Source: Odiellus spinosus
Taxonomy: Eukaryota > Arthropoda > Arachnida > Opiliones > Phalangiidae
Length of the DNA stretch: 64,000 bases
NCBI GenBank assembly: GCA_963920705.1
Contig: OY987231.1
Location: forward strand, 17,151,024-17,215,023
Direction: 5' to 3'
Positions within the stretch are counted from its first letter, which is position 1; every line of letters begins with the position of its first letter. The notes below the pieces were generated by a model. That model was not told the origin of the DNA. It saw nothing but the letters and a program-made list of their open reading frames with translations, and ran no database searches. This document shows, in pieces, positions 20,241-58,600 of this stretch. The position numbers were made by a program, and so were the translations under genes.

Positions 20241-20247
20241 TAAATAT

Positions 20248-20576
20248 ATGGGAAAAGTAAATCAATAGGGGGGAAAAGTAAATCAATAGGGGGGAAAAGT
20301 AAATCAATAGGGGGGAAAAGTAAATCAATAGGGGGGAAAAGTAAATCAATAGGGGGGAAAAGTAAATCAATAGGGGGGAAAAGTAAATCAATAGGGGGGA
20401 AAAGTAAATCAATAGGGGGAAAAGTAAATCAATAGGGGGAAAAGTAAATCAATAGGGGGGAAAAGTAAATCAATAGGGGGGAAAAGTAAATCAATAGGGG
20501 GGAAAAGTAAATCAATAGGGGGGAAAAGTAAATCAATAGGGGGGAAAAGTAAATCAATAGGGGGAAAAGTAAATTA
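20248..20576. repeat. 21-bp minisatellite, about 15 copies
   Basis: The unit GGGGGGAAAAGTAAATCAAT plus A repeats about 15 times. The only common variation is a G-run of five or six. It runs directly into a second, related array at 20576, so the whole 620-bp block appears to derive from one ancestral unit. Confidence 0.92.
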
Positions 20577-20870
20577 ATATGGGAAAAGTGGATTAATATG
20601 GGAAAAGTGGATTAATATGGGAAAAGTGGATTAATATGGGAAAAGTGGATTAATATGGGAAAAGTGGATTAATATGGGAAAAGTGGATTAATATGGGAAA
20701 AGTGGATTAATATGGGAAAAGTGGATTAATATGGGAAAAGTGGATTAATATGGGAAAAGTGGATTAATATGGGAAAAGTGGATTAATATGGGAAAAGTGG
20801 ATTAATATGGGAAAAGTGGATTAATATGGGAAAAGCGCATTAATACGGGAAACGCACATTAAAATGAGAA
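20576..20870. repeat. 19-bp minisatellite, about 15 copies
   Basis: The unit GGGAAAAGTGGATTAATAT repeats about 15 times with near identity until the last two degenerate copies (AAGCGCATTAATAC, AACGCACATTAAAA). It differs from the adjoining 21-bp unit by loss of G residues and AAATC to GGATT. The two arrays are homogeneous internally with an abrupt junction at about 20570-20580. Confidence 0.92.
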
Positions 20871-20874
20871 AAAG

Positions 20875-27900: not shown

Positions 27901-30900
27901 TTTATCCTCCATAACTACACTCGCAATACTTCTTTTAAGAAATCGATAAGAAATCAAATATATATAAAAGTAGAATCAGTTCATTTTTTTTTTTTTTTTT
28001 TCGTTTTGAAGAGATTCTAAGTAGGTCTTCCTCGCATCGGCTCGAGTTAAAAGTTGAAATCAATTATAAAAAACTCAGAAAAGGCCCATAATCTAAAATT
28101 GTGTTAGAAATTTGACCTTTTTTGCAATTTTAAAACCAACCAAAAACTATTTTTATCCATAAAATCGGCGTTCATTCAACGCTTAATACTTTTCAGTGGA
28201 AAATGGGAAACCTTATATTTTCGCATTAAAATTTTGAAAGGGTTCGTAACAGTGACAAATATTTTAAAAACTTTCTTCAACAGTTGTTTGCAACTAATTC
28301 TCTAAATGTCTATACATAGTTTTCAGTAAAGGGGCAAAAGATAATTCCACCCCTCTTACCCAGCTTTGCTTTCATTCCCAGGTTGCCAGGAGCTTGTGAG
28401 TGCAGTTCAGAACAGATCAGTTTCAAAACTGAACTCTAGCCTTTCCCTCTGCACTCACAAGTGGTTGGCAACATGGGGGGAACGGCACTTACCCCCTTTA
28501 GTGAAAACTATGTATAAAACATCGTCTATTAGAGTGTTTGAAATATATAAAGAAGAAGACGCACGTTTACGCTTAGCTATCTTTAATAGAAAAAAGCTTG
28601 GATTGTTGGATAAGTTTCTTAAACAAATTCGCCAAGCTAGTTTTCATTGTTACGCAAACTGTTCAAGATTCAATTAAAATTTCTATTTGGGAAATACATT
28701 TGTAAATATATACTTAAGCTACGTTAACACTATAGACTTTGAAACCATTTTTAAATCGTTTAAAATCTTCAAATCAGTTTTTCAAAATAATAATTATCAG
28801 GGTTGTAACAGATTTTTCATAACAAAATTACCTGACTTTTCCAGGTTTTCCCTGACCATCTTCACGTTTTTCCCTGACCAATTTAAAGGTTTAAATTGGT
28901 AGAAATGTGCAATTTCAAATGTAAAGCATTATTTATTCTTCAATAACTGTCCAAATAAACCCCTTATTGTGTTGTATGGGAAGTTCATGGTTGCTAGATT
29001 CGAGTGGGAGCTCTTCCTTGCGTGAATCACTTCTCCCCAAAAATAGTTGTATATTATGAGAAAGTATTCATTACTTTCCATAAATGTTTTGAAGGCTCTG
29101 ATCCCATATAATAAATTTTTACACATATTTATGGAAGCTTCCCTCATAGAAAATATAGTATATATTACTATATTTTCTATGCTTCCCTGGTCTAATTGAA
29201 TCCATACTATGAGATTCCACAATTTTATTTTTGGATAATATGAAAATTCACTGACTTTTCCCTGACCTTTGAACAATTTTTAAATTCCCAGACTTTTTAG
29301 ACCAATTTTGAAATTCCCAGACTTTTTAGACCAATTTTGAAATTCCCTGACTTTTCCAGGTTTTCCAGGTCTGTGGCAACCCTGATTACATATTTTGACA
29401 AATGATCTTTACAGTTGACCTCAAAATATTTCGATTTGACCTTTCCAAAACGGTTTCAAAGTCACGCGTGAACATGGCTACTAATACGTTTCTATCGTTT
29501 AAAAAATTTAAATTGCAAAATATCACGTCACAGTCACTTCAAAGTAACGTACGCTATAAAATGAGCTTAGTTGATTCGGGTTTCTGCGAAAAATACTCAT
29601 TTCCATTTTATTGCGTTTCTTCCAGCGAATGTTACGAATAATAAAAACCAATCGATTATTTTTCTCTAGCTAGCAAATTCGTCGAAAACGATCGACCTGT
29701 ATAAAAAATACACAAGAAATCTAATAATATAAATCCCTTTTGACTTGTTTCAGATTATTGGTATATTAGCCTTCATGCCATGGATAAGCCAAGCTACCAC
29801 GATACCCACTATTCCAGTGGTAGCACCTGTCTATCCGGGGATCCCGTCTACAACTAGCGCTAGCGCAACTACAAATACGTCTATAACCAATACAGCGACG
29901 GAGTCCTCATTCAAACCTATAACGCCAATCGTGAGAATCTTATCGAAGAAATTAACAAATAGCAGTGACGTGTCTCAAGGGCGGAGCGTCATTGGACTGT
30001 CCGATTTCACCTTCGACGCGGATGTGCAGAAGATTATCGATAGCGCCACCGAGGATACGCCCAAGAGAATATCAAACGGTTATTATGATGACGAAGATGA
30101 TGACGAAGACGAAGACGAACCACCACGAAGACCTTACAGACGTCGACGACCATACGGACTGCTAAGCGCGATGGCCGAAAAACTATACGGTGATCAGAGT
30201 GAACCAGAAACGTACATCGCCTATGCCAACCCGTACAGCTCTTTCGTTAAGAAACGCCCAGGCCGACCCAGGGATAAACACTATCCGTACCGCAAATTCG
30301 GACCGAAACCATACACCGAGCACTACAAGTTTTATAGCCCGTACGGCGGCGGATATAAACGTCCGCCTAAAAGACACTCCACCGGATACTACGGTCTGCC
30401 AATCGGGGGAGTATATAAAGACCCGTGGTACTCTGGGATGTACCGAAGACCAGGGCGACCGTACCGAGACTACGATCGGTATTCCGATTACAGACGACAT
30501 TCCAAACCGCCCAAGTTTCATAAATGGAAAGACCATAAAGTGGGTGATCAGCAGCAGAGCGGAGGCCAAGTTGTTGAGACTTACGATGATGATGATGATG
30601 ATGATGATAAGCACGAGATTATCGAACACGAGCCTCCACCCCCCTCACCGCCTAAACACGGGTACCATAAAGTAATGGGACCACCCCCGCCGGAAATTAT
30701 GGAAAAAATAAACAAACTGTACAAAAAGCCGTGTTATATACCGCATTGCGATCACTACAAGAAGGGATTCATTAAATTTTCCTACAAGAAGATTGTGTTT
30801 CCAAAAAAGGTCAAAATAATACCAATTAATCCTAAAAAAACTAAAGTGAAACCGGTAATAGTGTACCAACCGGCCCCTGAACCAGTCAAGTACAGCTCGC

Positions 30901-31964
30901 CACCGATTATAGAAGAATACCCTACCAAGTATAGCGCCGCACCAGATGTATCCGATTACCATAGTCATACCGCGGATTTTCAAGTACCGTATGGAGTGAC
31001 TGGGTTTGAGTACACCCCATCCTATCCCACAAAGATGGTCGAACCTTACACGCCAGAGTTCTCTAAAGCCCCAGTCCAGGATCTATCTTATCACCCCACT
31101 TACATACCAACGGATTATGGTGGCGATGGCTCGTACGGTGACGGAAAACAAAGTTCTAATTCCCATCCATTAAAAGACGCGCAAAAAACATCTCAGAACG
31201 GACAAACGGCAGCGACGAGTGGATACGACAGTAATAGCCTGCAACAATATTACCCGAGTAATACGTTCAGTTACGAAGGAAACCACGGTGGAAGTGCTAG
31301 CGGTGGGGCCTCATACGGCGGCACATCTTACGGTGGTACTAGTACTAATTCGTACGGTGGCACATCTCATGGTAGTACTAATTCCTACGGTGGTACATCT
31401 CATGGTAGTACTAATTCCTACGGTGGTATATCTCATGGTAGTACTAATTCCTACGGTGGTACATCTCATGGTAGTACTAATTCCTACGGTGGCACATCTA
31501 ATGGCGGTTCTCCGTCGTACGGCGCAAATTCTTACGGTGGTGGTCTAGATTACGGCTCATACAACGGTCAAAGTACTCCAACCAACGAAGGAAACTCGCT
31601 TAATGATTTGCAGGGTGGTAAGGCATTTTTTAAACCGGGGACTGGAAACTCGAAAGGCGAACCGAGTCATTCTAGTACGTCACAGTACAGCGCTTCAACT
31701 CCTTACGTAAGCTACGCCCTAAAACCATCGGGCGCGAAGACAGTAGGTACGGGCTACGTTAAGGAACTGGAACCTAAACCAGCGTCAAGTTACAATCAGA
31801 AAAAATTCAACGCCTTGAAAAGTTACTATAGCGACGAAGCTAAGTACGATAAAGGACCACCTAAGGATCCGTACGGTCCGACTTACATGCCAGAACATGA
31901 CCTATCAGAAACTTACCCTTATGAAAGGTCGGATAAATCAAAAACTCGAATAAAAACAAATTAA
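24923..31964 (+). CDS. Secreted Tyr/Pro/Gly/Lys-rich protein, two exons
   Basis: Proposed exons are 24923-24937 and 29754-31964. Exon 2 follows a good acceptor (CTTGTTTCAG) and has no early ATG of its own that would leave a complete signal peptide. Exon 1 encodes MDYIK followed by a consensus donor (GTAAGT). Joining them in phase 0 gives MDYIKIIGILAFMPWISQA, a plausible cleavable signal peptide, and a protein of about 741 residues. After it come a Thr/Ser/Pro-rich segment, an acidic Asp/Glu run, basic Arg/Tyr/Pro/Lys-rich stretches (30120-30560), a run of eight Asp encoded by GAT codons (30586-30609), a Pro/Lys/Tyr region, and a Gly/Ser/Tyr region with five near-identical NSYGGTSHGST-type repeats (31345-31500). 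No chitin-binding Rebers-Riddiford motif or other domain is recognised. The composition suggests an extracellular matrix or cuticle-associated protein; that role is inferred. The exon 1 assignment is the weakest part. Confidence 0.75.
25952..25985 (+). promoter_or_regulatory. Possible TATA/initiator core promoter
   Basis: TATAAATA at 25952-25959 is followed 30 bp later by an initiator-like TTCAGCC (A at 25982), the spacing expected for a TATA-directed start. It lies within the proposed first intron of the plus-strand secreted-protein gene, so it could drive an alternative first exon, or be chance in AT-rich DNA. Confidence 0.3.
27068..27123. repeat. Short imperfect hairpin
   Basis: CCATAGACCTT (27068-27078) is the exact reverse complement of AAGGTCTATGG (27113-27123), with an AT-rich loop. 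It is small and may be chance or an element remnant. Confidence 0.4.
27705..27780. repeat. Perfect 36-bp hairpin with 4-nt loop
   Basis: The left arm 27705-27740 and right arm 27745-27780 are perfect reverse complements across all 36 bp, separated only by AAAA. The sequence next to the loop is AAAATGTAAACC and its complement. It lies in the large intron of the plus-strand gene. Such a perfect, tight palindrome is either very recent or maintained; candidates are a small-RNA hairpin, a transposon foldback or an assembly fold-over. Confidence 0.95.
28311..28516. mobile_element. 206-bp foldback MITE-like element
   Basis: The outer arms TATACATAGTTTTCAGTAAA (28311-28330) and the complementary TTTAGTGAAAACTATGTATA (28497-28516) differ at one position. 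Nested inside is a second, stronger inverted pair: GTTGCCAGGAGCTTGTGAGT with GCAG near 28382-28405 and CTGCACTCACAAG...GTTGGCAAC near 28451-28474. The nested arms make one long hairpin. There is no coding capacity of its own; the 103-codon plus frame across it is not accepted. Confidence 0.7.
28798..29384. mobile_element. CAGGGTTG-ended non-autonomous DNA element (587 bp)
   Basis: It begins CAGGGTTGTAACAGA and ends with the inverted match TCTGTGGCAACCCTG. Inside both ends are copies of CCTGACTTTTCCAGGTTTTC, and near the right end a ~35-bp unit (AATTCCCAGACTTTTTAGAC) occurs twice in tandem. An internal perfect hairpin of about 16-bp arms (CATAGAAAATATAGTA) is centred near 29163. The ends fit the loose hAT terminal consensus (C-A-G-N-G), but I cannot see a clean 8-bp duplication. 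No transposase is present. It lies in the intron, about 370 bp before the proposed acceptor of the secreted-protein gene. Confidence 0.7.
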
Positions 31965-33304: not shown

Positions 33305-36300
33305 TCATTCTATAAACTTTGTGGCGCACTTTTTCTGATGCAAGTAAAAGGTATTTTTAACTAAAAATCTTTCCTGACAAAATTTGCAACCATAGGGTTT
33401 AATGCCAGTATGTACATCATACTCGTGCTTATCTCTTGACCAATATGTAATAAACTTAATTGGACAATATCGGCATTTCAATATTGGATCCTTCGTATGT
33501 TTTCGCAAATGATCATTAAGCATACTACGATAACTAAAATCCTTATCACAATACGTGCACTTGTAAACCTTTTTGCCCAAATGTTGGGCGATGTAATGTC
33601 TCTTCAAACTAGTTACTGAACTGAAATATTTCTTACAACTTTTGCATCTGTTTTTGTATTTATGAGTCCTCATGTGACATTGCTTTTCGAGTAAGGTATC
33701 AAAAAACAAGCCACAAATGCCACAGCTCAAACCAAGGTCCTCTTCTTGGGCTTGAATACCGTATTTATCAAGAATCTCTGTGCATGTGAGTTTAGAGGGA
33801 TCTCCAATCCCTGCGTCGTCTTTAGGAGGTAGCTTCGTGTATAAATCAATATCTTCCTGGGTTAATTTCTCAAGAGTCACGTAACAATTAGGAAAACTAT
33901 AGTTTTTAATACCCAAGCAAGTTTTCCTATGAGTTCGTCGACCATATTTGGTGTCAAAACGAGCTCCACACGAGCATTTATACGAACTGGAACTAGAATG
34001 TTGTTTCAAATGTTTCTCTAAGGAGGACTGGCGTCGGAATGTCGCGTCGCATTGGGTGCAATCTAAATCTTTTCCTCGAGTCTCCGAATGGATCTTCTTG
34101 TGTAGCTTCAAATTAGTTTTACTATCGAACGATTGTTTGCAAATTTCGCAAAAGAAAATAGTTTTCCCGAAATGCTGACTGATAAAATGAATTTTCAAAG
34201 AAGATCGTCTGGTGCATATAATTTTACAAATTTTGCATTGAACGCTGCGTTTGTGACACCTCATATGACTAATTTTCGAGTTGATACTCTTAAAATCCAT
34301 ACCACAAATTCCGCAATTTAAAGTCACAAAGTCTTCCACCTCAATATTGAACATTTGGATTATTTGAAAGGGAGTCATGTTTTGGAGGTCAGTTTTGGAT
34401 TTTACATCGGGTAACTCCATGTCGGTCCAAGTATTGTAGGACTTAATTTGATCCTCCTTTAATTTTTCAAGAGGTACGTAGCAATCAGGGAGCCCTCCCG
34501 ATGCCTGCAATATTTCTTCAAAATTAATGGAAGAATTCAAATCGGCGTAGGATTTCTGGGAATTTTGTTCTAATTCCGGTACTATGGGAAATTGGGCATC
34601 GTATTCATTATCAGAATCAATTACAAGGTCGTCCACTTCAGTTTCAGCATAAGACACTGGCTTTCGCGCCCTACGAAGGGAGTGTCCGTGGAAGCTATCA
34701 TTTTCGATAGGAATCTGATATTCTTCTTGATCATTTGATTTATTGGACAAGCTTTCATCTACTATCAGCGTTTCTGGTAATTTCGTCAGACCTCCGTGGG
34801 CTTCTTGGCGATGGATAATCAAACTAGCTTCGATTATAAATATCTTGTTACATATATCACATATAAAAGGTTTTTCTTCATTTAGGGAGCAATCAATAGC
34901 TTCCTGTTTAACCGATACTGCTGCCACAAGGTTATGATTTTCTTGCCGATGAAGTTTCAAACTTTGAAAAAGCATGAAAGTCGCGCCACAATCAGAGCAA
35001 ACAAACGGTTGAGTATCATACCCGTTTTCGTCAGCCGAATCATCACAGTCTGAAGAACTAGCTGAAGTATTTGTAGTTGTAGAATTCGCAGCCTTTGATG
35101 ACATCTGTTTTAACAACTCTTTCTGGATTTCCCACGTTCGACAGCCACGAGCCGCTGATTGGATTTGAAAACTTTTGTAGGCTTTATTTACAGGCATTGC
35201 CTTAGGACTACATTCTTTCTCAATAATACTTTTCTGATGTATGGTCATACCATTAAAACTCTTGAAGGCTTTATTTTTAGTATTTGCAGTAATAATAGGT
35301 TTTGGAAGTGTACTAGCTGGTTTCAATGCTACATGACTAGAAATTTTCTTAGGTTGTTGAAAAGACTGTTTCAAGGTCTTAGGTTTATCCACTATCAACG
35401 ATTTAGAATTTATCAGCTCAAATGGATTAATGGACACAGAATGATCCGGGTTCATCAGAGCAGCGACCGGTAGCTTAGGAAGTCTAGGACGGGCTGTTCT
35501 TGAGGCTCCAGGTCCAGCCGTTCTTGAGGCTCTGGGGCGAGCCTTTTTGGAGGCTTTACGGCGAGCCGTTCTGGAGGGTCCAGGTCGAGCTGTTCTGGTG
35601 GGACCAGGACGAGAAGCTTTCGAAGGCCCTGGATGAGTTAGTCTTGAAGGGCCAGTATCATTCAAATCAGGGGAGTTATTTTTTTTCAAAGGTGATGACT
35701 TAATCACTTTCAAAGGTACAGATTTTGGCTTTATAAAATTGGTGGGATGAGACGGCTTTGACGACCCTGAATGGTCTGTGGAGTGTGATGCAGAAACCAC
35801 TTTGGAAGTTACAGAATTGGCCAATTTTGAGGTTGTTGGAGTAGGCGACTTGGTTGGTAAAGAATTAAATTTGTAATCTTTGTTGTAGGGTGTTTGCGTA
35901 GATGGTGTCGGTTGAAAACTTTTTACTGCTCTATTTTTTGGTTGATAATTAATAGGATTATTTTTAGAAGAGTGGCCAGATTCGCCTGACTTTTTTTTTG
36001 GTGCTTCTTGCATTTTATGCCACATGTCAAGATGAGAACTTAAACACTTACTATTAGTAAACTTATCTTGACACAAATGGCACAGATATACTTTATTACG
36101 CTTGTGAGAGGGTTTTAATCTCTGGTGTTTTCTCAATGAGTCTTGGTAGTTGAATCTAAAGCCACACTCTTCACATACAAATCTTCTAACACCATGTTGA
36201 CCCATGTAATGTCTCATGTAATTCTGATTGCTTGCAAAGATTTTACCACACGTTTGGCATTGATAATGTTTAACCATTTTGGGCACTGAATTTTTCTGGC

Positions 36301-36577
36301 TCGGTTCTTTAACTGCCTTACACTTTCTTAACTTTTTGTGAAAGAGAAGCTGACGTTTGGTTAGAAAACTTTTCCCGCAGTCATCGCACTTAACCAAATT
36401 CACATCCAACGCCTTCATTTCGCCCCGGGGTTTTATATTCTTTTTCCTTGGACTGTTCCTCTTGCACTTTCTAAACTTCAGGTGATGTACAACTTTTTGT
36501 CTGCTGTCAAATTGTTCACCACATAATAGACAAGGAAACATTTTTGGGGCAATGGTATGGGTAATAGTATCTTCCAT
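33305..36577 (-). CDS. C2H2 zinc-finger protein with about 17 fingers
   Basis: A single open exon of 1,090 codons. The frame is open slightly further upstream, but the first ATG is at 36577 and is preceded by an acceptor-like TTTGTTAG, suggesting an intron in the 5' untranslated region. Fingers come in blocks: five N-terminal (the first two end in Cys, C2HC type), a Pro/Ser/Lys linker with basic GPSRTARP-like repeats near residues 300-360, two fingers, an acidic linker, five fingers, and five more at the C-terminus, the last C2HC. Linkers are mostly not TGEKP. Before each of the last two blocks stands a ~60-residue module, LPDCYVPLEKL and FPNCYVTLEKL, ending in a CGICG finger. Likely a nuclear DNA-binding regulator; the target is unknown. 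Finger order and linker motifs closely match the gene at 39586-45227, so the pair arose by tandem duplication. No ZAD, BTB or KRAB domain is seen. Confidence 0.93.
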   Translation of the reverse strand: MEDTITHTIAPKMFPCLLCGEQFDSRQKVVHHLKFRKCKRNSPRKKNIKPRGEMKALDVNLVKCDDCGKSFLTKRQLLFHKKLRKCKAVKEPSQKNSVPKMVKHYQCQTCGKIFASNQNYMRHYMGQHGVRRFVCEECGFRFNYQDSLRKHQRLKPSHKRNKVYLCHLCQDKFTNSKCLSSHLDMWHKMQEAPKKKSGESGHSSKNNPINYQPKNRAVKSFQPTPSTQTPYNKDYKFNSLPTKSPTPTTSKLANSVTSKVVSASHSTDHSGSSKPSHPTNFIKPKSVPLKVIKSSPLKKNNSPDLNDTGPSRLTHPGPSKASRPGPTRTARPGPSRTARRKASKKARPRASRTAGPGASRTARPRLPKLPVAALMNPDHSVSINPFELINSKSLIVDKPKTLKQSFQQPKKISSHVALKPASTLPKPIITANTKNKAFKSFNGMTIHQKSIIEKECSPKAMPVNKAYKSFQIQSAARGCRTWEIQKELLKQMSSKAANSTTTNTSASSSDCDDSADENGYDTQPFVCSDCGATFMLFQSLKLHRQENHNLVAAVSVKQEAIDCSLNEEKPFICDICNKIFIIEASLIIHRQEAHGGLTKLPETLIVDESLSNKSNDQEEYQIPIENDSFHGHSLRRARKPVSYAETEVDDLVIDSDNEYDAQFPIVPELEQNSQKSYADLNSSINFEEILQASGGLPDCYVPLEKLKEDQIKSYNTWTDMELPDVKSKTDLQNMTPFQIIQMFNIEVEDFVTLNCGICGMDFKSINSKISHMRCHKRSVQCKICKIICTRRSSLKIHFISQHFGKTIFFCEICKQSFDSKTNLKLHKKIHSETRGKDLDCTQCDATFRRQSSLEKHLKQHSSSSSYKCSCGARFDTKYGRRTHRKTCLGIKNYSFPNCYVTLEKLTQEDIDLYTKLPPKDDAGIGDPSKLTCTEILDKYGIQAQEEDLGLSCGICGLFFDTLLEKQCHMRTHKYKNRCKSCKKYFSSVTSLKRHYIAQHLGKKVYKCTYCDKDFSYRSMLNDHLRKHTKDPILKCRYCPIKFITYWSRDKHEYDVHTGIKPYGCKFCQERFLVKNTFYLHQKKCATKFIE

Positions 36578-36940
36578 TTCTAACAAAGTATCAGAGTACG
36601 AAAGTTCAATCCCTTTAGTCCGAGGCAGTCAGAGGTAAAAGCTCTTCAGTTCGAAAGTTATATTGCTAAAATAAAGACCATGGCAAATTCCTTACAAAAT
36701 ACTGTACATTGTGTATATAGAAATTGAAGTGAAAAGCAGCTACAACACAAAATAAAGCAGATATGTAACCTGACTCGATTTGGGTCTTGCCAAATTGATC
36801 TCGCTCCAAGCTCGAGAAATTAAAAACAGCTTCAAGAATTTTTTAGTTTCTATTGATTCAACTGGAGTCAGGTTAATAACTATCATGCCATGTACAGTTC
36901 TATATAAAAATTTCAACTAGCATATCAAAGATCCAAATAA

Positions 36941-38298
36941 TGTTGGGAGTATACATAGCAACATGCGCAAAGCTTTAGACCAAACTTCTCTACTCACCAA
37001 GGCAAAACAGAAATCAAGTCATTTCAAAATTAGCTTTGTGACCGCAAAACATTTACAGATACCAAATTACTAGAGAATTTTATGAGTATACGAAATAAAG
37101 GGGGGGTTGACAAGTTTCTAAAATTCACATACAGGTTGACTTAAAATGGCTCAAGCTGAGGTGGTGAAAAAGGTTTGGAAAACCGTTACTGTGTGACATC
37201 ACTTAACAATGTAGGAGCTTAATTCAATACTGTTTCATGAGGTTAAAGTTATTTTTCAAAATGCAGCCGCCTTAGCTTGCGTTCATTTAACCTTGAAAAA
37301 CAGTGTCTCAAAATCTTAGATGCTATAAAAATGCGTCAAAACCATTCATGACCATCCAACTATGCAAATACATGCAAAGGTTCCATTCAAGCTTGCGTAG
37401 CCATAGGTATAATGAGATATGTCTTACTTTAAGTGTCATCCAGGTATTGATTTAAGTCGAAATTCAAACTCTCCAGCCGTCAGATTTCCAGTTGTTATGC
37501 AGTTGTGATCCCTTCCTCGCACCTTATAAATATAAAAAAGGTGCTTTTAATATAAGGGTCGTGACTATAAACTATTTGGTAAAATAATCTGTGCAATGTT
37601 GGGAGTATACATAGCAACATGCGCAAAGCTTCAGACCAAATTTCTCAAATCACCAAGGCAAAACAAAAATCAAATGATTTCAAAATTAGCTTGGTGACCC
37701 GAAAACATTTACAGATACCAAATTAGTAGAGAATTTTATGAGTATATGAAATAAAGAGGGGTTTCTAAAATTCACATACAGGTTGACTTAAATTGGCTCA
37801 AGCAGAGGTGGTGAATTGGGTTTGGAAAACGTCATCGTTACAGTGTGACATCACTTAACAATGTAGGAGCTTAGTTCAATACCGTTTCATGAGGTTAAAG
37901 TTATTTTTCAAAAAGCAGCCGCCTTAGCTTGCGTTCATTTAATCTTGAAAAACTGTGTCTCAAAGAGTCAAAATCTTAGATGCAATAAAAATGTGTCAAA
38001 ACCATTCATGACCAATATAAAATACAACTATGCAAATACATGCAAAGGTTCCATTCAAGCTTGCGTAGCCATAGGTATAATGAGTTATGTCTTACTTTAA
38101 GCGTTATCCAGGTATTGATTAAAGTCGAAATTCAAACTCTCCAGCCGTCAGATTTCCAGTTGATATGCAGTTGTGATCCCTTCCTTGCACCTTATAAATA
38201 TAAAAAAGGTGCTTTTAATATATAAGGGTCGTGACTATAAACTATTTGGTAAAATAACCATTATTATTGCCTAAATATTTTAACTTTAATCTGTGCAA
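36941..38298. repeat. Tandem duplication, 656-bp period
   Basis: Copy A (36941-37596) and copy B (37597-38298) begin with the same TGTTGGGAGTATACATAGCA and run in parallel with scattered substitutions and small indels; most stretches are nearly identical. Copy B has about 35 bp near its end (after AAATAAC) that copy A lacks. The pair lies in the ~3-kb gap between the zinc-finger paralogues, on the 5' side of the 17-finger gene. It could duplicate a promoter or a non-coding first exon of that gene. No coding sequence is recognised in it. Confidence 0.92.
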
Positions 38299-38379
38299 GG
38301 GAGAAATCACAAGAGCATAACACAAATATCAAAAATTGTTTTATTTTACGCTTCAAAATCTTTTAATTATAAGATAAAA

Positions 38380-38770
38380 GTTTTATTTTACAGTTCAAAA
38401 TTGTTATGAGTAATAGTGTGCTACAAATATACTTAACTTAAAAAAACCCACAGATAAGCGCATAAAAATGTTACATAGAACATTAAATGAAATAACAACA
38501 TAGATAAAGATAGAAATAATGTTTTTATGTTCACTAACATTTTCATCCTCTCACTGGTGGTTATTTCTAGTATTAAGTGTATTGTGCCACAATTTTTCTT
38601 ATGATAAAATGAAATGAGCCGTAAAATACCAGTTTTTTTTTTTTTTTTTTAAATAATCATCCTACGCTATTTTATTTTAGTTTAAAATTGACATTCTGGC
38701 ACAAATACACTTAATACTAAAAATAAAAAACAGTGAGCGGATAAAAATGTTACATTGAACGTTATATATA
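38380..38770. repeat. Three copies of a ~70-bp repeat, one inverted
   Basis: A segment of the form GTGCTACAAATATACTTAA ... AAAAATGTTACATAGAACATT occurs at about 38418-38488, in reverse complement at about 38526-38598 (ATGTTCACTAACATTTTCAT ... ATTAAGTGTATTGTGCCAC), and directly again at about 38697-38765. All three share CACTTAATACTA and ATAAAAATGTTA blocks. This may be a composite of small element ends. Flanking TTTTATTTTA stretches also recur. Confidence 0.65.
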
Positions 38771-39134
38771 TGTTACTTCTATTTTTATTTTATGTTATAT
38801 TGAATAAAGGTGAACCGGTGGCGATTGTAAAACAACATTTCTAATAAAAATAGCTTATTTGAGTGAATACACCCCTTAAATTTTAAAACTAAAGTTCCAA
38901 TAGAGACTAAGTATCCAATTAGTTTAATATTCCGAATTCCAACCAGACATTTTTATAACGTAAAAATCTGTTTTCACAGGATTTTTGATAAAAACTTTGG
39001 CAGTTGGATGAGTCTAAAATAAAAACAACTGAAATCCAACGATATGTATGAAAATACGTCTTAAAATCTTTGTATATCACATACTCCTTACCAGATTAGT
39101 AAACATGCCTTGTCAAGGAGTAAAAAAATACACT

Positions 39135-39140
39135 TTTATT
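39135..39140 (-). terminator. Possible polyadenylation signal (minus strand)
   Basis: TTTATT on the plus strand reads AATAAA on the minus strand. It lies about 450 bp past the stop of the large zinc-finger gene and beyond the decayed fingers, which would place those in the 3' untranslated region. Other AT-rich signals nearby are possible. Confidence 0.3.
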
Positions 39141-39185
39141 TTTGGACAAAGGGGGAAGAATATGGATTACCCGTATAAATGGATT

Positions 39186-39585
39186 ACGCAAAATAAACCT
39201 TTTTTTCAAAAATAAAGCAACGCACATTTCCCTTGGGCCACTTCTTACTTTTTAAATTCTTAAAATGTTTCTTGCAAAATTTACAGGCAACAATGGTATT
39301 AGAGAATTCCTTTTGCCCTAAGGTTTAAATCGTCATGCAGTTTCACCTATATCTTTAGTATTTTCAAGATTTGAACAACTTACATTAGAGTTGGTACTCT
39401 AGTAGAGTCACCAACAAATGTTAGTACAGCTTTTTTTCTTGATTAGCGTTTAAGCTACTAAAGGTTTGTTTGAAATATGTGCAAGCTATACCATTGGTAT
39501 CTTTTGTAAGAACATTTTGTAAACCTTTACTACAAAATTTGGATTCATGGTCCGTTTTAATACACGAATTCCTAAAATATCTCTC
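39186..39585 (-). pseudogene. Decayed zinc-finger modules beyond the stop codon
   Basis: Continuing the minus-strand frame of the large zinc-finger gene past its TGA (39586-39588) gives recognisable finger remnants. Immediately after the stop comes ERYFRNSCIKTDHE, completing a finger whose second Cys codon position is now TGA. Next is TYFKQTFSSLNANQEKK, then, after several stops, ACKFCKKHFKNLKSKK at about 39285-39241 with Trp-Pro in place of the first His. The last resembles the intact finger CKFCKKKFGSLNSKKKHE upstream in the same protein. All are in the same frame as the gene. The stretch reads as fingers lost after a premature stop. Confidence 0.75.
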
Positions 39586-42500
39586 TCAATATTTACATCT
39601 AAGTACTGTAATTGATTTTTCAGACCCATCAGACGAGTTCTCACTATATCGTACATCATTATTATCATCTCTCTCACTATTAGCTTGGCAGCTTTTAATT
39701 TTTTCGTGGGAATCTTTAGCGTACAAATTCCTAAAAATTTTATTGCAAAATTTGCAAACAAAATCAGTGAGTGGTTCATTTTTACTGACCTCAGGAGGAG
39801 TTGCTCTTACATTTAGAAGCAAGTCCTGTCGGGTTTGGTCCCATTTTGAAAGATTGTCAATTACAATCATACAACGTACATTTTTCTCGTGTTTTTTTTT
39901 ACTATTTAAACTACCAAATTTCTTTTTGCAAAATTTACAAAAAAAATCATTAGAAATTTCTTTTGACGCTAAACAGGGTTCAGATGAAAGATTAGCTACT
40001 GTGAGCTTATCATCACCCTCTACCATTATCTCTGAAATATTAGATGCTTTACTATAACCTGCATTATTCCCAGGTAAAGTTTCGCTTAACTCTAACTCGT
40101 TGTTAGCTACAGAGGTGATAGATTTACAGGGTAATGTTTTATCTGATGATACAGCATTATTAGGTTCCAAAGGAAAATGTGCGCTTCTTTCGTGGAGACT
40201 TTTATCACTAAGATTCTCATATACATTTGGGCAAGCTCTGCATTTATAACCAGGTGTGTTTTTCTCACTGTTATCAATATCTGAACTTTCATTTCCTTGA
40301 AAAGCGGGTGTTGCCATTTCTTCCAAATTAATTTCAGACCGAACATCAGGATTTTGCTTGCACATATGTTTTTCGTGATATATTTTACCAGCTAGATAAA
40401 TAAATGTTACACTACAAAACATGCAAGTAAAATCAGAATCTCTGAGTTTAGAACTGGGAGAAGTCTCGGAAACTGGGGTTACACTACCAGATGGAACCTC
40501 TGGAGTTTCACTTAACTCGCTAATCCTAGATCTTTGGCTTAGAACAGGGCTGGTTTCGTTAGCTAATGAGTTGGTCTGCCGGTCTAATTTATCAACTACA
40601 GGTTTTAATGTCGTAGATCTTATCAATGAGGCTATAGATATTTTGGATGATGATGCACCTTCAACTGTGACTATTTTCAAGGTAGGATTTCTAAGACTAT
40701 TCTTAGTTGAATCATTTTCAGAAGTTCTATTCTCATGTTTATCATCTCCATTACTATTTGCTGTTACATAACTATTCATCAGGTTCACATCTACTACATG
40801 AGTATCATTATGGTTATTTCGTACAAGACTATCATTTGTATTGTAATGTGCCACAGCCCTAGCATTAGTGTGTTTAACAGAACTATTGTCCGGGCTGTAA
40901 TCTAACATAGAACTCGTCTTTGAGGTTTGATTAGATAGATTAGAAGGACTATCATCCCATGCTTCACTTCTATGAGGCGTGGATTCATAATTGTTATCTT
41001 TGCAAAGCTTTTCATGTGTGGCACGAGCTTTATTACTATAGAACCTTTTGGAGCAAATTGAGCAAGTATTTGCAGATAGAGCTTCACTATACTTAAGAGG
41101 GGATAGTGTTCGTCTTGGGTTACGAGTTTTATTTTGTAACGATTGGTCTGATTTATCAAACTTGCCATCGGAAAGCTCAAGCTCATTAATGCTATCTATA
41201 TTTAAGCCCCCAGATCGGTTTTTATACTCTATGTGATGAGTCAACCTTTCATGCGCATGCCTATTCTTTAAGTTATCAAATTTATCTTCACAAAATCTGC
41301 AAGTTAATCCGACATTTGAAATTATCGTGACTGTTTGATAATTGGTTCCTGTCTTTACTGATTTTTTCTTGGAACTACAGTTTCCAAGCACCTCATGTGC
41401 TCTTTTACCTCGAAAGGTTTTAAAAACATTACCACAAAATTTACACTCAAATTTTGACTTCTCACGATCTGATCTTTTTTTAATATGAGCTAGTGTTTCA
41501 TGAATACTCTTACCTTGTTTAGTTGAAAATAATTTGTCACAAAATTTACACGCAAAATAAGCCTGCATATCTGAACTTTTACAAGTGTCATTTACTTCAA
41601 TAATGCTCACTCTCAACCTACTATCCACTTCACTACCACAATTTTTCTTGCCTTTATTGATAGTGGTTTCCTTTCCCTTGTGTGCCACTACAATGTGAAT
41701 ACTTTTAGCATTTAAACTTCGGAATTTTTGATCACAAAATGAGCAAGCAATTAGATCTTTCTGTCTGGCATGAAATAGGTTTTCATGTTTCCTTTTGTCA
41801 ACAGAAGACTTAAATTTTTTATAACAAAACCCGCAAGACACTTTACTTCTAGTTTCACTAGTGTACGAAGATTCAAAATCACCCTCCTCCCCATAGTTTT
41901 CAGATTCAATTCTTGTGTTTACGCAAGTCTTCAGTATTTCATGCTTGTACTTCTCATTATTGATTGAAAATTCCTCCATACAAAATTTACAAGGGTAACT
42001 AGTTTTGTAATTTAAAATATTTGGAAGTGCAGTTTCATTATCATTTGACACACTTGGGAAATTATCCTTAAATCTGTTACTAGAGCTTCGTTGCCTCTCG
42101 TGAATATATTTCCCTCTTAATTTATTGGATTTTTTAGGGCAAAACCTACAAGACAGAGCATTCCCACGAATCGATCTTTCCCGACCTGGATCTGAACTAG
42201 ATACCGCAGTTTCTTCAACTATTTTCTCAACTAATACTGGTTCATTACTTAAAACTAAATTAGATACTGGTAACAGAAATTTTGATAAAGGTGAGCGGTG
42301 CTTTGGACTTTTTTGTATATTTGATTCCTCGCAAGAACTGTACTTTTTTTTCACAGCACGTAAGACCTTGGAAGGAACTACATTTCCACTAGATTTAAAT
42401 TTCGTTGATTTTTTCGGACAAGTTAGTTTTTTGTGATACTTCCAAGCTGATAAGGTCTCAAATTCCTCTTTGCATAATCTACACATCAAAGAGTGACAAT

Positions 42501-45227
42501 GATACATGTGCCGGTCTAAGGAGAGTTGGCTAAAACACGGACGGTAACATATATCACATGAGAGCTTGAGCTTTTCACGATGATAAGTGCGCATGTGCGT
42601 GTTAAGACTATCCCTGTAATTGAAGGTTTCTACGCAATATTCGCAACAAAAATAGTTCCCAATATGTTGTCCTAAATAATGACGATTCAAATTACTTTTA
42701 TCTCGGAATAATTTATCGCATTTGGAAAAGCCACATTGGAATTTAAAGTTATGGATTTCAGCCATATGCGATCTTTTAAATTCCAGATGGGTGAACTCTT
42801 GGCCACAGAAGGTACATTTTAGATCTTGGTTTTCAGGATTTATATTTCGATTGACAAGGACTTCAGTGCAACTGTTATTTCCATATACATCATTAATATT
42901 TTTTAAGGCTAAACGTAGGCTCAAAGGAGAACAGCTTTGCGATTTGGAATATCTCTCTATTTCTTTCTGCGATAATTTTTGTAAGGAAACGGAGCACACA
43001 GGAAGACCGGTTGAAACTGATGAAGGTGAATTAAAATGGGCCAAAGATTTCTTAACCATCACTATATGTTTAACTTTGTCATCAATTATATCAAATCCAT
43101 TTTCCAATATATTTTCACTTTCATATTCAAAAACCATATCATCTATTATGTTCTCTTCGTACGAGATCTTTTTCATTTTCCGACGAGGTGAGTGTCTAGT
43201 CGCATCACTTTCTGGATGTAAGGGCAAATACTTTGCACTGTAGAACTTCCACTCGGGTTTTTTTTGGGCAGGCAAAACATTTTCACTATAAAACTTTTGG
43301 GGTTTAGCGTGATTTTTCTTGTTTACTTCATTTACATCGATGATGGAAGAAATATCAAAATCTTCTTGCCGTACCATTGAAGATTTAATAGTCGGTAGTT
43401 TAGGCATCTTAAACAAACTAGAATCGTCATTTTCAAAACTTTTTTCCAGTATGTCATCGGATGAACTGCCACTATACACATATTTTCGTTTAATGCCTTT
43501 TTTATTCTTTGAAAACCACTCTTTTTCATTAATCTGACTACTCGTGATGGATTGCTTTATCTGACTAGATGATTTGGATATGAGGCTGGCTTTACCGTAA
43601 CACGGTAATTTTGGAGGTGTTCCTTTAAAATCCTTGACAACTGTCTCAGTAAAATTTTCCAAAAGCAAGTCAGGAATGGATTCAGACGACTGACTTTTTT
43701 CTTTATCAGGCAAACTTAGAACTAAATTATTTTTCAATCTTTTTTTTAAAAGTTCCAAGTCAATAGTGGATTTAGATTCATTGTCCCTCTCCATCTCTGT
43801 TACAGAAGCATCAGACTTATTAATTGGGAGATTTAGATACTTCTGAACATCTAAACACTGCTTTTTATCTAACCCTTGGCTCGTTATGTTTATGGTAATT
43901 ATAGTAGAATTCTTGGCTGACTCGGTGGGCAAACTGTCTTGACTCGAGTTGTTAGTTTCGTTATTATTCTGCATTGAATCTAATCCTTTATTGCTAGTAT
44001 TGATAGTAATTATAGTAGACCAAGGACTAACATTGCTAGGTTCCCGATCATTTTGTGACAATGTTGATTGCCAATTTCCCTTTTCAGTAAATACTATATC
44101 ATTATGAGATGTTGTACTCTTAGTCTCATCATCAACAGAGTTTTCCAGTGGTCTTCCCCTGTTTTTATGACAAAATTGACTCTCTTGATGTATAAGTAAG
44201 CTGGCTTCGATAATAAAACATTGCCCGCATATGTTGCAAAGAAAAGGTTTTTCTTCCAATTCAGAGTTTGTGATGTTTTCCATTCTAAACAAGTCGACAG
44301 GCTCGTCATTGAAATGTTGATCTTCAATAATATTTTCAACATCAGCGTCGCTAAAATGAAACTGATGGTTCGAATTATCAGATGATACCGACTGGTTATC
44401 ACGATTTTTTTCCGAATTAATTTCTTCACTAGAAGTGGATTGAGAAGAGGAGTTCGCCATTTTTCGTTTATTTTCGGTAGAAATACGAGAGACCGATTTA
44501 ATATTGTGACTAACGTCTTGATGTTGCGTTAGGCATTTGATGTTGGTGAACACTTTTTGGCAGTACGAGCATGGGTATTTCCCCTTATTGATGTGCTTAT
44601 TTTCGAGTTTTAGATGAGTTCTCAGACTATCCGCGTAACTATAATTATAGCCACATTCCTTACAAGCGAAGGGCTTAATGTTGCTGTGCTGCCCTACGTA
44701 GTGTCTTTCGTAGCTAAACAATAAATTAATCAAATAAAAATTGAAATTAAAGGAAAAAAATTTAAAAACGCCACAATTTCCGTAAGAAAAAAATATTATT
44801 ACTTGGCATTACTAGGGAAGAGTTTGAGACAGACTTGACATTGATATTGCCGCAGTATCTTTTCATCACTGGCATTTTTAGTTTTCTCTTCAGGGTTGCC
44901 ATATTTAGATTTATCTTTGACGTATTTCGAACAATTATGATTAAGTAGACGTTTTTTAAAGCGAAAAGTAGCTGAACAAATTTCACATTCGAATGCCTTT
45001 GAAATATCATGAGTGGCTTGATGTTTGTCCCTTTCCAATCTGTCTTGGAAGCTCTTAGAGCAAAACAAACAATAATACGAAATCACGCGACTGGATCTAC
45101 GCTGAGGGTTTTCATTTTTCTCTACGCAAGTGTCTATAGCTTTTAAAGCTAATTTAGGTAAATTATTTGCAGTGGTGGACAAAGTTCCATTACAATTTGG
45201 CAATTGTTGTTTCTCTATCTCAGCCAT
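39586..45227 (-). CDS. Large C2H2/C2HC zinc-finger protein with about 23 fingers
   Basis: Two coding exons, 44803-45227 and 39586-44713, joined across an 89-bp intron (donor GTAATA, acceptor TTGTTTAG). Joining restores a complete finger, CQVCLKLFPSNANYERHYVG, and gives about 1,850 residues. The start ATG sits in a good context (CACCATGG). The N-terminal half resembles the neighbouring 17-finger gene: the same finger order, the same FIIEASL finger and one copy of the LP-C-V-L-KL module (LPVCSVSLQKL). The C-terminal half is a widely spaced series of about 12 fingers of an unusual form, C-K-F-C-x3-F-x2-L-x2-K-x2-H-E, ending in His or Cys. Linkers are Ser/Asn/Lys-rich. It ends inside a finger, at CKY then TGA. 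It is likely a nuclear nucleic-acid-binding protein. The repeated HE fingers look like a lineage-specific internal expansion. Confidence 0.93.
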
Positions 45228-45229
45228 GG

Positions 45230-48200
45230 TGACACAAGGTTAAGATATTTGTACAGTTTAAGTTTCCAATAAATTCTTGAAAAAGAGATTAGGTGGGTTG
45301 GGTAATTAGATCAAACAGATGAAATAAACTGCACGTGCAGTAATACGCGTTAATCTTATGTCGCAAACTTAAATTAAAAATTAAACACGAAAACATATAG
45401 GCAATGATATCTAATCATTACTACGCATTTATGAGCAAAGATTAACAATGAACCCTTGCCAAAAAATGCACCTGAAAATGTATTCAAGACTTCATCAAGC
45501 CTCCTTTAGAAGCTCTTGGATCTCTGATGGTCTTAAACATCGACCTCTTTGACCAACAAGTTTTTTTTTATTATTAGGGCACACACCCACGATTTTTTGT
45601 TCATTAGTAGGATATTAGCCTCATGTTTTTTGAGCCTAAGTACTTATCGACAGTTTAAGCTTCCTTCCTTTAACGACTATTAACCAACGTAAGTAGAATT
45701 GTATGTTTGTATAGGGAACTTTAGTTTTGAAAGCTGTTGAAAAATACCTTTTTTGTTGTACCCAAATATGTAGCCTGAATAGCAATCCAGAGAGATTCTG
45801 TATCAAATTCCTTTCTCCTATAAATGAAGTTGTAATAATTTATTAGCAATTGGTAAAGGAAAAATAAAACTATCTTATCATGGAATAGTGATAGTTTCAT
45901 AACCAGTATTGATTTATTTGCTCAGTAAATCAACATTTCAAAGGCCCTTCTTATAGAAGAGTTAGATTAATAATGAGAGAGATTTGAAATACCAGTCATA
46001 TGAAGGGTATTTCGTTTATGAAAATAGTATTTCTATTCCAGAACAAGATAGAATTAACCTTCCAAGATTTTCATAATTTCCAACCTTGTTAAATTTCATG
46101 TCAAAGCCAAGGGTTATTCTTTTGAAGTAGGTTAGTAGCCTTATTGTAATGAGCTTAGACCAAAAAGAATCTGAAAAATAAAGAAAATATTATTAAACTT
46201 GTAATAAAATTTCATGTAAATGAATTCTTAGATATTCGGTGCTAGGAGCACAAAAACTCCCGAGTAGATGAATCATTTTCCATCTAGGAGACGCCCTTAA
46301 AGCAACTGGCGCCTCTGGAGGAGCTACTGTGAAAGTCTCTTCCCTGATGCACACCAAATATGCCTTGTGAAAGGCAGGTGTCAATGGGACCTACATACAC
46401 TTATAAATCCCTCTGTTCTGCCTTTGGTAGGGGAAATTGTGTAGCAGAAAAGCGGGCATTTAGGAGAAACTCTAAAGCCGCAAATTCCTTTAAGAGTTAT
46501 TCAGTTACTTTATCTCTTTTTGGGGGCATATAAGAATTTAAGACGAAGCAAGCATTCGATTGCAGATTGCGATGCTTCTACATTCAATTTGACCCAACAA
46601 ACATTTGCCCTAAATCCTTAATCCGGTTTACCAATTGCGGCTGCTAGGTTAAGTTAGGACTCAATAATTTTGACCTTTTTCTGCCTGCTGTCTATACCTA
46701 GGGTGCCAATTAATTACACCATGGATCCGTCGCGCACTCTACTTGACCCTACTGTGCATCTCACCAACTTACAGAACACAGTCAGCTTTTCTAGAACGTG
46801 AAACCCGTCTCAAAAGGGCGAGTCAAATTTTGGTATTAGAAACTATTAGCTGGTCTCACTACCTTCTCACTCTTCTGCCTTTATACAAGAACATTCATTT
46901 AAACTTAGATCATCCAGCAACACTATTCCATGGTCATTTAAGGCTTTTGTGAAACTCTGCCATTCAATCTCATCCGACAAGCCTGACTACCAACCCATTA
47001 AATACTTAAGTCAAGGCACTCGTCATTGCAGCAGCCAACCAGACCAGTTGACCCTATAAATTCTCATATCAAAGCTGCTACTCCTACTCTGCGAACTCCC
47101 CCAACCCCAGAAAATAATGGACCTCACATCCCTAGCCCCAACCGCTTGTTACTTATCCACTCCCACACGATTACCTCAACCTGGTTTTCTCATCGAACTC
47201 CTTACTCCCACGGCCAAAGTAACCACGAAGCTATTAATTTCTGCCACGACCACCGCCCAACCCAACTAACGAGTATTGACTATATCACCGGCAGCTCTGA
47301 AGGAAATCTCTCACTGGAAAATAGGCAATGGCTTTTCTAACACCGCTCTTACACTTAGTTACAAAAAGTCTTGGAAATGTTTCGCCAAAAATATACATTT
47401 ATTATCAGCGCCATACTTAGATCCAAAAGACGAAGAAGATGAAAGTGATTTGACATCACACTAGCTAGAATGTTTCTTGAAATCAATTATGTGGCTGGTA
47501 ATACGGCCATAAAGAGACCAAATAAAAATCGTCTGCTAAACACACAAAGGCTTATTCACTAACTTAGTCAGCTCTAACTTTTACACGAGTTTTGGCATCA
47601 TATTGTGACGCTAGAGGAAATTTTGGGATCCAAACCCAATTAGGATCTTTATATTGCCTTTAACCTCGGATTAGAGTATCTGTAGATACTCTAATCCCAG
47701 GTTAAAGGGAGAGCCTATAAGAAAAATGTAACATCAAATTCCGTACTTTAACTTATTGATTAGGCGCTCAGGAGTCAATCCAACATGTAATGCATCATAA
47801 ATTGAAAATTTATTTGCCATGGTAAATATAATATTATTTATTTTTAATTAAAAGACAGATAATTCATGGCAGTTGTTAGAACTTTTATTTGTCGGGAGCT
47901 TTCGGACCCCTGGTCCTTCATCAGCCGAAGTTTTTTTGCTGTGAGATACAAGTGGATGTTATGCATCGTTATTGTTTCTCATCATAAGACACATCATCTT
48001 GTGAAAACCAGAATCGTGTCACGTACCATTCTAAGGAGTACGGAGGCTACCCTGCCCACCATCCATTGACATTACCAGGGGCACTTGGCCTGTTTTTTAC
48101 TGCTTTCCACAGGAGCATGTCAGCCACTGGGGCAAGCCGACAAGCTTCTGTGGGAAACAGAAGAAATAAAAAGGGCAATGGTAAAATGACCTTATCACGA

Positions 48201-55631: not shown

Positions 55632-58600
55632 TCAAGGGTCTAACTTGGTATCTGGCAACCATTTATGAAAAGGTACACCATTGGACACAAACAAAGGAGG
55701 TGGTAAAGTGAACATGTCTAAAAGATTGCTAGTTTTACTGTCGTCTGAATGGACATTTAACGGAGGAGGTAGCCGATATTGGTTGGCTGTTGTACTAGTA
55801 TTGGGCGGAACCATCGTGTTCATTTCCGATATGCTTGGAGGTAGTTTCAAGTTTACTCTTTCGCGAACATTGCCAAACACTACCGGGTTGCTAGTCGCGT
55901 GTGAATTAATTTGGTATCTGTAAGACGTTGATGTTTCGTTTGTAAAAGGCTTATTAACGAAATGAGTGTTAGAAATTGGCCCATTATAACTGTTCGTAAC
56001 GTTTGTATTTGTATTCAGATTGGTGGTAGTGGGGCAAACACTGTACGATAAATTAGTATTTTGATCAGTCGTCATGGGGTCCATATTCTGATTATTAATG
56101 GTCGTAGGGCCCACGCTGTACTTAATGTTTGTACTCTGATTCGCGGAGCTAGTTACCATACTGTAAGTTTGGTCTCTATTTTGATTGGCGGCGGCAGCGT
56201 TCATTTGATTTGTATTGGGATAAATAGACATTGAATCCGTCCTGTGCATAACATTTGCATTAGTTGTTGTGTGACTCATCGGAGGCATTGGGTTTGAAAT
56301 CTGATTCCCTGTAGTTGAATCCATCCTGTACATGATATTTGTATTCTGATTGGCTGTCGTGAGGCTCATCCGTGGCATTAGGTTCGAGTTCTGATTGCCA
56401 ACCTTTGAAGCCATCCTGTATATGTTACGGCTGCCAATTATTGGGTCCATCCTGTTGATTACATTCATATTCTGATTGGTAGTAGTTAAGCCGAAGCTGT
56501 TACCCAAGTTTATATTTTGAATAACTGGTGCAGATTCGGGTCTTTGCGTTACAGCATCGGGTATTCGGAAATCGTACGTTGATGGATTAGAATAACCTAC
56601 GTTGAACTCCTTCTTAAGACCTTCTCCAAGAGGCGCTTCAAATTCCACAACCTTCCTCTTACGTCCTAGCTTTCTCTCCTCATAGCCTTCCTCTTGTCGT
56701 TTGGCTTCCATCTTTTTTTCCCATTCCTGCTCACCGTGACGAGGAAAATTCAAGTTCTTGTGCTGGTAAAACACCAAGCTAATTCTTGTTGGATTCTTTC
56801 TGTCTGGGTTCTTCAAAGCCGTCGTTGCGTGTAGCTCGTGCTTGGCGCATTCGAACAAGACGGATCCGTGTGTTAAAGCAACCGCAACTCCACCAATTTC
56901 ATCATCCTTGAAGTTAGTTTCGCTGTCCGAATGCACCTCGACAATTTCCTCAAATGGTACACTTTCAGTTGGTTCTTTCTTTATATTACAAAAATAATTG
57001 TGCTCTTCATTCATCAAGAGTCCGTAACCATCGTCTTGCGGTTCGGCCTTGATTTTAGGGAAAGAGGTGTTTGGAAGATGGATACTCGCTTCTAAATCAT
57101 ACCGGCTTCCCATGAATGCGTTTTTAAACGATGGAAGGAACGGTGCTTGAATGTTGAAGTTACTTTCTACTTGCTCACCGTAAGACGAGTAAGAATGCTC
57201 TATTTCGTCATATGGAAGATTATAACATGGTGCGTTGGTAAAATCTCGTCTGACAATACTTGTCTCTTCGGAGAATTCGTACTCATCTTTGACTCTAGTT
57301 GAATAGTTCCCAGTATTAAAACTCTCATTAGTGGCGTAATTTTGATCATATGGGTTAGATATTTCCGTCTTAACTTGATACGACGGTTCAAGCATTTGCG
57401 AATACGAGCCTTGGTACTGAAAGTTATCGTCTATTCTAGAAACTAGTGATGGCACATTTCTATCGTATTCGTAGCCATGGACAGGGTTAACGTAGTTTTG
57501 AGAAGCGTAGTAAGGTGGAGGTCCCAAAATGTTGTTATTTGTAGTTGTTTCGTCTGGTATAATCATGTCTGATTGCCCATCCAGTTGATCAAGACGAAAA
57601 GGAGACGCTGCTGCTTGTCTATTTGGAGAACCGGTTTTTTCTTCTCTTTCCTTAGGTGGACTTGGCATTGACTTGATTGGTTTTCTGCTTGGACTTATAC
57701 TAGATGGCTTTTGTTTGTTTTCGATTAAATTGTGTTGTACTGGTTTCTGATAAGTCACAGTAGGCGGTCTCTCCACTGCCGGACGTCCTGCGTCCATTGT
57801 ATGTGCAATTTGGGGATAATTTAAAGGCGATTTTGATCTTACGTTTCTTTGCAATATAGAGGGCATTGTTCGCGTCTGATTTGGATAAAGAAACCTCGTG
57901 GGTAATTCTGGCTGTTGAAACGCTGCCGACGCCTGACCTTGCATGATTGCATTTTGTGGTCCAGGAAAATGTGACACTTGGTAATGACCACCCGCCACTG
58001 CAAACCCCTGATAGTTAACAGCCTGTTGAGGAGAGTTCAACCGCGGCGAATGTATTGGGGATGTACTTAGATGATTCGGTGAAACGGTTGTCGGACTCAT
58101 CATAGGCGACAACTGACTGGTTTGTGGTGACATTGGTGTTTTTGATGGAATTTGGCTCAGTGGTGGGCTTGGTCGTTGAGAATACATGAAATGTTTAGTT
58201 AATTGATTATGATGCGGAAAAGGTTTGTAACTAGGAGACTGAGGCTGATGGTATATAGGCGGTTGTTGTTGATATCGTTGAACAAGTTGATGAGTGAATT
58301 GTTGCTTCTTCGAATTAGGATGTTGAAAAGTTGGCGAAAGTAATTGAGACTGTTGCATCTGTATTGGTGATAATGATTGTTGCATCTTCATTGCGGATCG
58401 GTCTTGTTGCGTATCCATTGGAGATCGGTCTTGTTCCGTATTCATTGGCGATCGGGCTTGCGGCGTGTGCATTGGGGATCGGGCTTGTTGCGAATGCATT
58501 GGTGATTGGGCTGGTCGCGTGTGCATTTGTGATTGGGGTTGTTGGATGTGTTCTAGTGGTTGGGTTGGTTGCGTATGCAATGGAGAATGAGGTTGTGGCG

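Follow-up and report, generated by a model that had tools for sequence, protein, structure and literature searches.

The stretch of DNA analysed here, referred to as the window, comprises 64,000 nucleotides of the 443 Mb genome of the arachnid Odiellus spinosus (G000:C7:17151024-17215023). It contains two tandem, paralogous C2H2 zinc-finger genes on the minus strand, gene 1 and gene 2. Within them, a cassette occurs three times, twice in gene 1 and once in gene 2. Each cassette is made up of a 20-residue core, a variable spacer of about 38–43 residues and five C2H2-type fingers. Core and spacer together form the module, whose copies are called A and B (gene 1) and C (gene 2). The subject of this work is the core and the CxVxL pentapeptide within it, which makes the core a candidate ligand for the chromoshadow domain of HP1.

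The long frames of both genes contain matches to PF13894 and PF00096 above the Pfam cut-off, as expected of C2H2 genes. Gene 2 is divided between two exon frames, the longer of which (39586-44808) has 1740 codons. Visual inspection of the sequence, together with comparison to gene 1, suggests that a short GT-AG intron joins these frames inside a finger. The two genes share a common order, defined by BLASTP stretches: N-terminal fingers, a middle finger region, a second non-finger motif and the cassette. An additional 11 C-terminal fingers are present in gene 2 alone (pattern count). The second non-finger motif, HSxRRxxKx[VI]SYxExx[VI]DD[LM]V, lies upstream of modules A and C, where 10 of 20 residues are identical and the local score of the region is reached by 0 of 3000 shuffles. 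It is not found before module B, which comes straight after the fingers of A. In addition, gene 1 has a 24-base tandem repeat at 35496-35613 (4.9 copies) encoding Arg/Ala/Pro/Ser-rich units, with three NKA[FY]KSF-like motifs nearby (by eye). Between the two finger genes, at 36939-38257, there is a direct repeat of ~650 bases in two copies, pieces of which are 81-97% identical.

A first-pass annotation, made from the letters of the window, reported a recurrent ~60-residue segment that is always placed immediately before a finger block. The three copies are real. All are open on the minus strand, A and B within the gene 1 frame and C within that of gene 2, and the pairwise module scores of 66, 54 and 64 (BLOSUM62, local) are each reached by 0 of 5000 shuffles; for the pair A–C the best shuffle came near, with a score of 51. 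All three fit the opening motif, [LF]P-x-C-[YS]-V-x-L-[EQ]-K-L, exactly, and the number of residues between it and Ile-x2-Tyr is four, not the "about five" first given. When the eight invariant core residues are written as a regular expression and run over the six frames of the window, the three module sites are the only ones found. A profile of the three copies likewise returns these above noise, with the next best at E 3.4; as the copies match their own profile by construction, what this search shows is the absence of a fourth copy. The claim about placement holds in one direction: 3/3 copies immediately precede a finger block, but several finger blocks have no module. By profile search, gene 1 has no module at its N-terminal block of five fingers or at its two middle fingers, and gene 2 has none at its N-terminal fingers, its middle finger or its 11 C-terminal fingers.

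Table 1. Coordinates of the two genes and of the parts of the three cassettes, in window positions.
Feature	Position	Strand	Description	Basis
Gene 1	33305-36628	-	long open frame (1107 codons); likely first Met MEDTITH, by eye	frame list
Gene 2	44799-45239 + 39586-44808 (overall 39586..45239)	-	two exon frames	frame list
Module A	34319..34495	-	whole module, 59 residues: core, then a weakly conserved spacer that includes a short hydrophobic helix (low-confidence prediction)	
Module B	33728..33901	-	whole module, 58 residues	
Module C	42820..43008	-	whole module, 63 residues	
Core A	34436..34495	-	GLPDCYVPLEKLKEDQIKSY	regular expression and identity count
Core B	33839..33898	-	SFPNCYVTLEKLTQEDIDLY	regular expression and identity count
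Core C	42949..43008	-	GLPVCSVSLQKLSQKEIERY	regular expression and identity count
CxVxL of A	34469..34483	-	CYVPL, candidate HP1 chromoshadow ligand	
CxVxL of B	33872..33886	-	CYVTL	
CxVxL of C	42982..42996	-	CSVSL	
Finger block after A	33908..34318	-	five fingers	five CxxC pairs aligned with B and C
Finger block after B	33320..33727	-	five fingers	CxxC alignment
Finger block after C	42418..42819	-	five fingers	CxxC alignment
Second motif upstream of A	34622..34684	-	HSLRRARKPVSYAETEVDDLV	coordinates counted from translation
Second motif upstream of C	43132..43194	-	HSPRRKMKKISYEENIIDDMV	coordinates counted from translation

As the same five-finger run follows each module, the recurring unit is the cassette. 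The three cassettes (~198 residues) can be aligned over their whole length, and 43 columns, five CxxC pairs among them, are invariant. Their fingers occur in identical order; the first fingers resemble each other and the last has a terminal Cys. On sequence grounds, this threefold arrangement is best explained by duplication.

Conservation along the cassette is uneven. Identity between copies of the core is 10/20, 10/20 and 9/20 (45-50%), that of the spacer is 20-29% (34-36 aligned residues) and that of the fingers is 34-36%, or 22-25% when the shared Cys and His residues are left out. With these residues removed, invariant columns number 7/19 in the core versus 13/108 in the fingers (Fisher P 0.013); with all columns counted, the values are 8/20 versus 32/127 and the difference is not significant (P 0.18). 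The invariant core residues are P3, C5, V7, L9, K11, L12, I17 and Y20 (copy A numbering), which gives the pattern P-x-C-x-V-x-L-x-K-L-x4-I-x2-Y. Hence a segment of ~60 residues does recur three times, but it is well kept over the first 20 residues only.

The module matches no named domain, in line with the first-pass annotation: for each of the three copies, Pfam returns 0 families to E 10. Similarly, a profile search of the PDB gave no credible match for the module. Here, designed tetratricopeptide repeat proteins (whole-chain E 0.0009) were rejected because the score is a sum of weak repeats over ~26 residues, the best single stretch seen having 9.0 bits and an i-Evalue of 20. When cassette B is used for the PDB search, finger proteins are found, and among the 60 matches listed the best stretches start at residue 59 or later. 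A degenerate zinc finger or ZAD was rejected as well, as the module has one invariant Cys; there was no ZAD match in a Pfam scan of both genes to E 1 and of the modules to E 10.

Structure prediction of copies B and A with their following fingers, which had been suggested as a check on the proposed domain, gives low confidence for the module. AlphaFold was given three sequences, too small a number for disorder to be concluded, and the queries were cassette B and module A plus finger 1. The former has a mean pLDDT (predicted local distance difference test) of 59.2, with ten-residue blocks of the module at 31-51. The latter has a mean of 62.4, with module blocks at 49-63 and two blocks of finger 1 at ~80 (up to 81). 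Helices are placed near residues 14-22 and 40-48 in both models.

Beyond the gene pair, the host genome was searched with whole cassettes, which recover the window copies. Queries with the module only miss even the other copies of the window, and their silence elsewhere therefore means little. For cassette B, the best 150 of 886 candidates were scored, giving 182 matches at E 0.001. Among the matches listed, 3 begin at residue 1-3 and belong to the gene pair, and the remainder start at residue 46 or later. The exception is a C10 match starting at residue 13, in whose locus (L016) the profile search found no module. For cassette C, with the best 150 of 578 candidates scored, 66 matches are listed: 3 start at residue 1-2, all in the gene pair, and the others at residue 43 or later. 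The module profile was also run over 36 loci (197,534 bases), that is, five of the gene pair, one HP1 locus and 30 others. Only the gene pair rises above noise, the next best having an E of 0.8, and the profile picks up no module in the 30 other loci. This search covers part of the finger loci listed for the genome, three of them as stretches limited to 10,000 bases; the finger cluster on C5 near 24.3 Mb is represented by L005, L006, L008, L009 and L012 only, and the clusters on C5 near 21.8 Mb and on C14 near 1.74 Mb lie outside it. On C11, a 2335-codon frame matches residues 11-55 of module C at E 0.33; this match was rejected because, by eye, its aligned part does not have the P-x-C-x-V-x-L start.

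Further afield, there is no relative among viral contigs (searched with module plus finger, motif pattern and cassette) or genome contigs (module and cassette), and phage records give no match. These contig collections are prokaryotic and viral, so the null results say little. A literature search for six octapeptides gave 0 papers, and the available excerpts of PMC5509000, PMC3022755, PMC7062049, PMC9531945, PMC7465937, PMC2324200 and PMC7655104 do not describe the module.

What, then, might the core do? In 3/3 copies it contains, outside the fingers, a C/P/L-x-V-x-L pentapeptide of the type found in HP1 chromoshadow ligands. Gene 1 has 2 CxVxL versus 0.14 expected, a count reached by 1.1% of 1000 shuffles. 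Gene 2 also has 2, one in the core and one inside a finger, versus 0.28 expected (3.2% of shuffles). When residues of these genes are placed at random in the eight invariant columns, [PLC]xVxL arises in 0.17% of draws. For comparison, 38 other finger-bearing frames were taken from 28 loci, four of which (L004, L007, L010 and L011) are nested in others. Their 9102 non-finger residues (by pattern) contain no CxVxL, with 0.36 expected, and the 38 frames have one [PLC]xVxL, adjoining a finger, versus 3.9 expected. Therefore, CxVxL is not a habit of finger-gene linkers in this genome.

A candidate partner exists as well, since the C-terminal exon of the host HP1 closely matches CBX1 chains (such as 3q6s, 5t1g and 1s4z), through YEERLTWH. 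A single Chromo_shadow match in the host genome passes the cut-off (positions 21-52 of 52), with chromodomain-like exons beside it (by eye). The host protein thus has both a chromoshadow domain and a Trp-bearing tail, whose Trp we take to be the one numbered 170 in HP1beta.

It is possible, and we propose it tentatively as the best explanation, that the duplicated cassette uses its core as an HP1-docking peptide and so tethers HP1 to finger-bound DNA. At first the invariant residues alternate in the manner of a beta strand (P-x-C-x-V-x-L-x-K); after them comes a short predicted helix containing I-x2-Y. The putative strand includes CxVxL, a variant of PxVxL, and would lie between the paired chromoshadow domains of dimeric HP1. 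Target sites would be selected by the fingers and HP1 recruited to them through the core, with the spacer keeping the docking strand away from finger 1. With two cassettes, gene 1 could hold two HP1 dimers or bridge two sites. A stronger form of this proposal is doubtful: here, strand plus helix and five fingers would be a transferable HP1-docking cassette, multiplied as a unit, so that a protein with two HP1 clamps acts as a bivalent, sequence-specific nucleator of heterochromatin that operates without KRAB-KAP1.

Several observations weigh against HP1 as the partner. CxVxL is a weak motif that was noticed after the fact, making the shuffle and draw figures post hoc. The wider [PLC]xVx[LMVI] is not enriched, its count being matched in 13.3% of shuffles for gene 1 and in 11.2% for gene 2; for [PLC]xVxL the figure is 23.5% in gene 2 (1.1% in gene 1). 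The canonical Pro occupies the first position of the motif in 0/3 copies, and neither AlphaFold model has a strand in the core. Finally, CxVxL leaves out five invariant core residues (P, K, L, I and Y), which go beyond the minimal HP1 motif. To account for these, the contact would have to be more extensive, or be made with a different partner or with a finger of the same protein, and it is mainly because of them that HP1 docking is kept at the level of a tentative proposal.

The last of these options, contact with a finger of the same protein, is what a finger extension would provide. In this explanation, which we regard as unlikely though worth weighing, core and spacer pack on or cap finger 1 for DNA binding or stability, with no partner protein involved. 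Consistent with it, the module is joined directly to finger 1 in 3/3 copies, the CxxCGxxF at the beginning of finger 1 is conserved together with it, and the linker between fingers 1 and 2 is five residues long in every cassette. However, module confidence is low in both models, although two blocks of finger 1 are well predicted in the shorter one, and conservation is highest at the end distant from finger 1, separated from it by the poorly conserved spacer of variable length. Another partner could also account for the five residues outside CxVxL. Here, the core would be a docking peptide for a co-repressor, for another beta-augmenting domain or for self-association, and CxVxL would be coincidental. 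Alternating invariants and a short predicted helix do fit a peptide that folds on its partner, but the searches made point to no specific alternative and CxVxL is present in all three copies, making this improbable too.

The 20-residue core is more likely to be a short docking motif than a new 60-residue domain, because the peptide contains an HP1-docking sequence that is known elsewhere. The new folded, ~60-residue zinc-finger-associated domain envisaged at first is very unlikely: the lack of a Pfam or credible PDB match and the two helices common to both models speak for it, whereas recurrence comes with duplication of a whole cassette, two thirds of the module are poorly conserved with alignment gaps of up to 10 residues, confidence is low in both models (although AlphaFold cannot settle the matter with three sequences) and the searched part of the genome yielded no copy beyond the gene pair. 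Just as improbable is a plain linker with no function of its own, for although whole-cassette duplication explains its recurrence, the core is identical at 9-10 of 20 residues while the best ungapped 20-residue match between genes 1 and 2 in the other non-finger parts scanned is 8/20, the second shared motif (10/20) aside; the earlier view that the segment, recurring before fingers, is more than linker is upheld.

Docking of HP1 by such a peptide has precedents, described here from excerpts of the papers concerned. A PxVxL ligand adopts a beta strand that pairs with each of the two monomers in a chromoshadow dimer (PMC7062049), and CxVxL is a degenerate form of the HP1a chromoshadow motif (PMC7465937). 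The CxVxL of dATRX binds dHP-1a in pull-down and co-precipitation experiments, and V247E abolishes both binding and localisation to heterochromatin (PMC2324200). In these excerpts, dATRX, SP100, KAP1 and CAF-1 p150 are named as proteins with a CxVxL/PxVxL motif that binds the HP1 chromoshadow domain, and the three cores resemble this group in having C-x-V-x-L. In contrast to them, the motif in the present genes, as judged from sequence alone, is part of a larger core with five further invariant residues, stands before five fingers and is triplicated.

A closer parallel is Odj (Oddjob), a Drosophila ZAD-ZNF protein that, as far as the excerpt goes, likewise combines C2H2 fingers with an HP1-type motif in a non-finger linker. 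Its PxVxL is conserved, and V164A changes heterochromatin localisation (PMC7655104). Odj has a ZAD, whereas the genes described here have no Pfam ZAD match and their CxVxL recurs together with fingers. Kipferl provides a counter-example, in which the fourth finger binds the Rhino chromodomain with no PxVxL (PMC9531945, in excerpt). The ZAD, SCAN and KRAB domains are also non-finger elements on the finger arrays of expanding families, KRAB being typical of vertebrates and ZAD of insects (PMC5509000, in excerpt). They are described as N-terminal, whereas the module is internal and repeated, and none of them appears in the Pfam scan. ZAD in particular has two invariant Cys pairs in 71-97 residues according to the same excerpt, and the module has one invariant Cys.

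The remainder of the window contains other features. On the minus strand, 55632-61889 includes a TET dioxygenase exon (Tet_JBP, E 5.5e-12), and the frame of this exon contains long tandem-repeat stretches with units of 27 and 30 bases and up to 21.7 copies. Two further arrays are open in several frames: a 30-base array at 4432-5029 (19.9 copies, 98% matches) and a 24-base array at 16280-16813 (22.2 copies, 95% matches). A 19/21-base array of ~16-32 copies is found at 20246-20872. On the plus strand, 29733-31964 is a 743-codon frame that is rich in Gly, Tyr, Ser, Pro and Asp runs and has no Pfam match at E 0.001.

To our knowledge, there are few sequence-specific finger proteins of insects for which the delivery of HP1 to DNA has been elucidated. 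Should the core bind HP1, it would be a compact, testable link from DNA sequence to heterochromatin, and the gene pair would bring a natural internal control of one cassette versus two. Otherwise, these genes illustrate how a recurring "module before fingers" can arise from cassette duplication.

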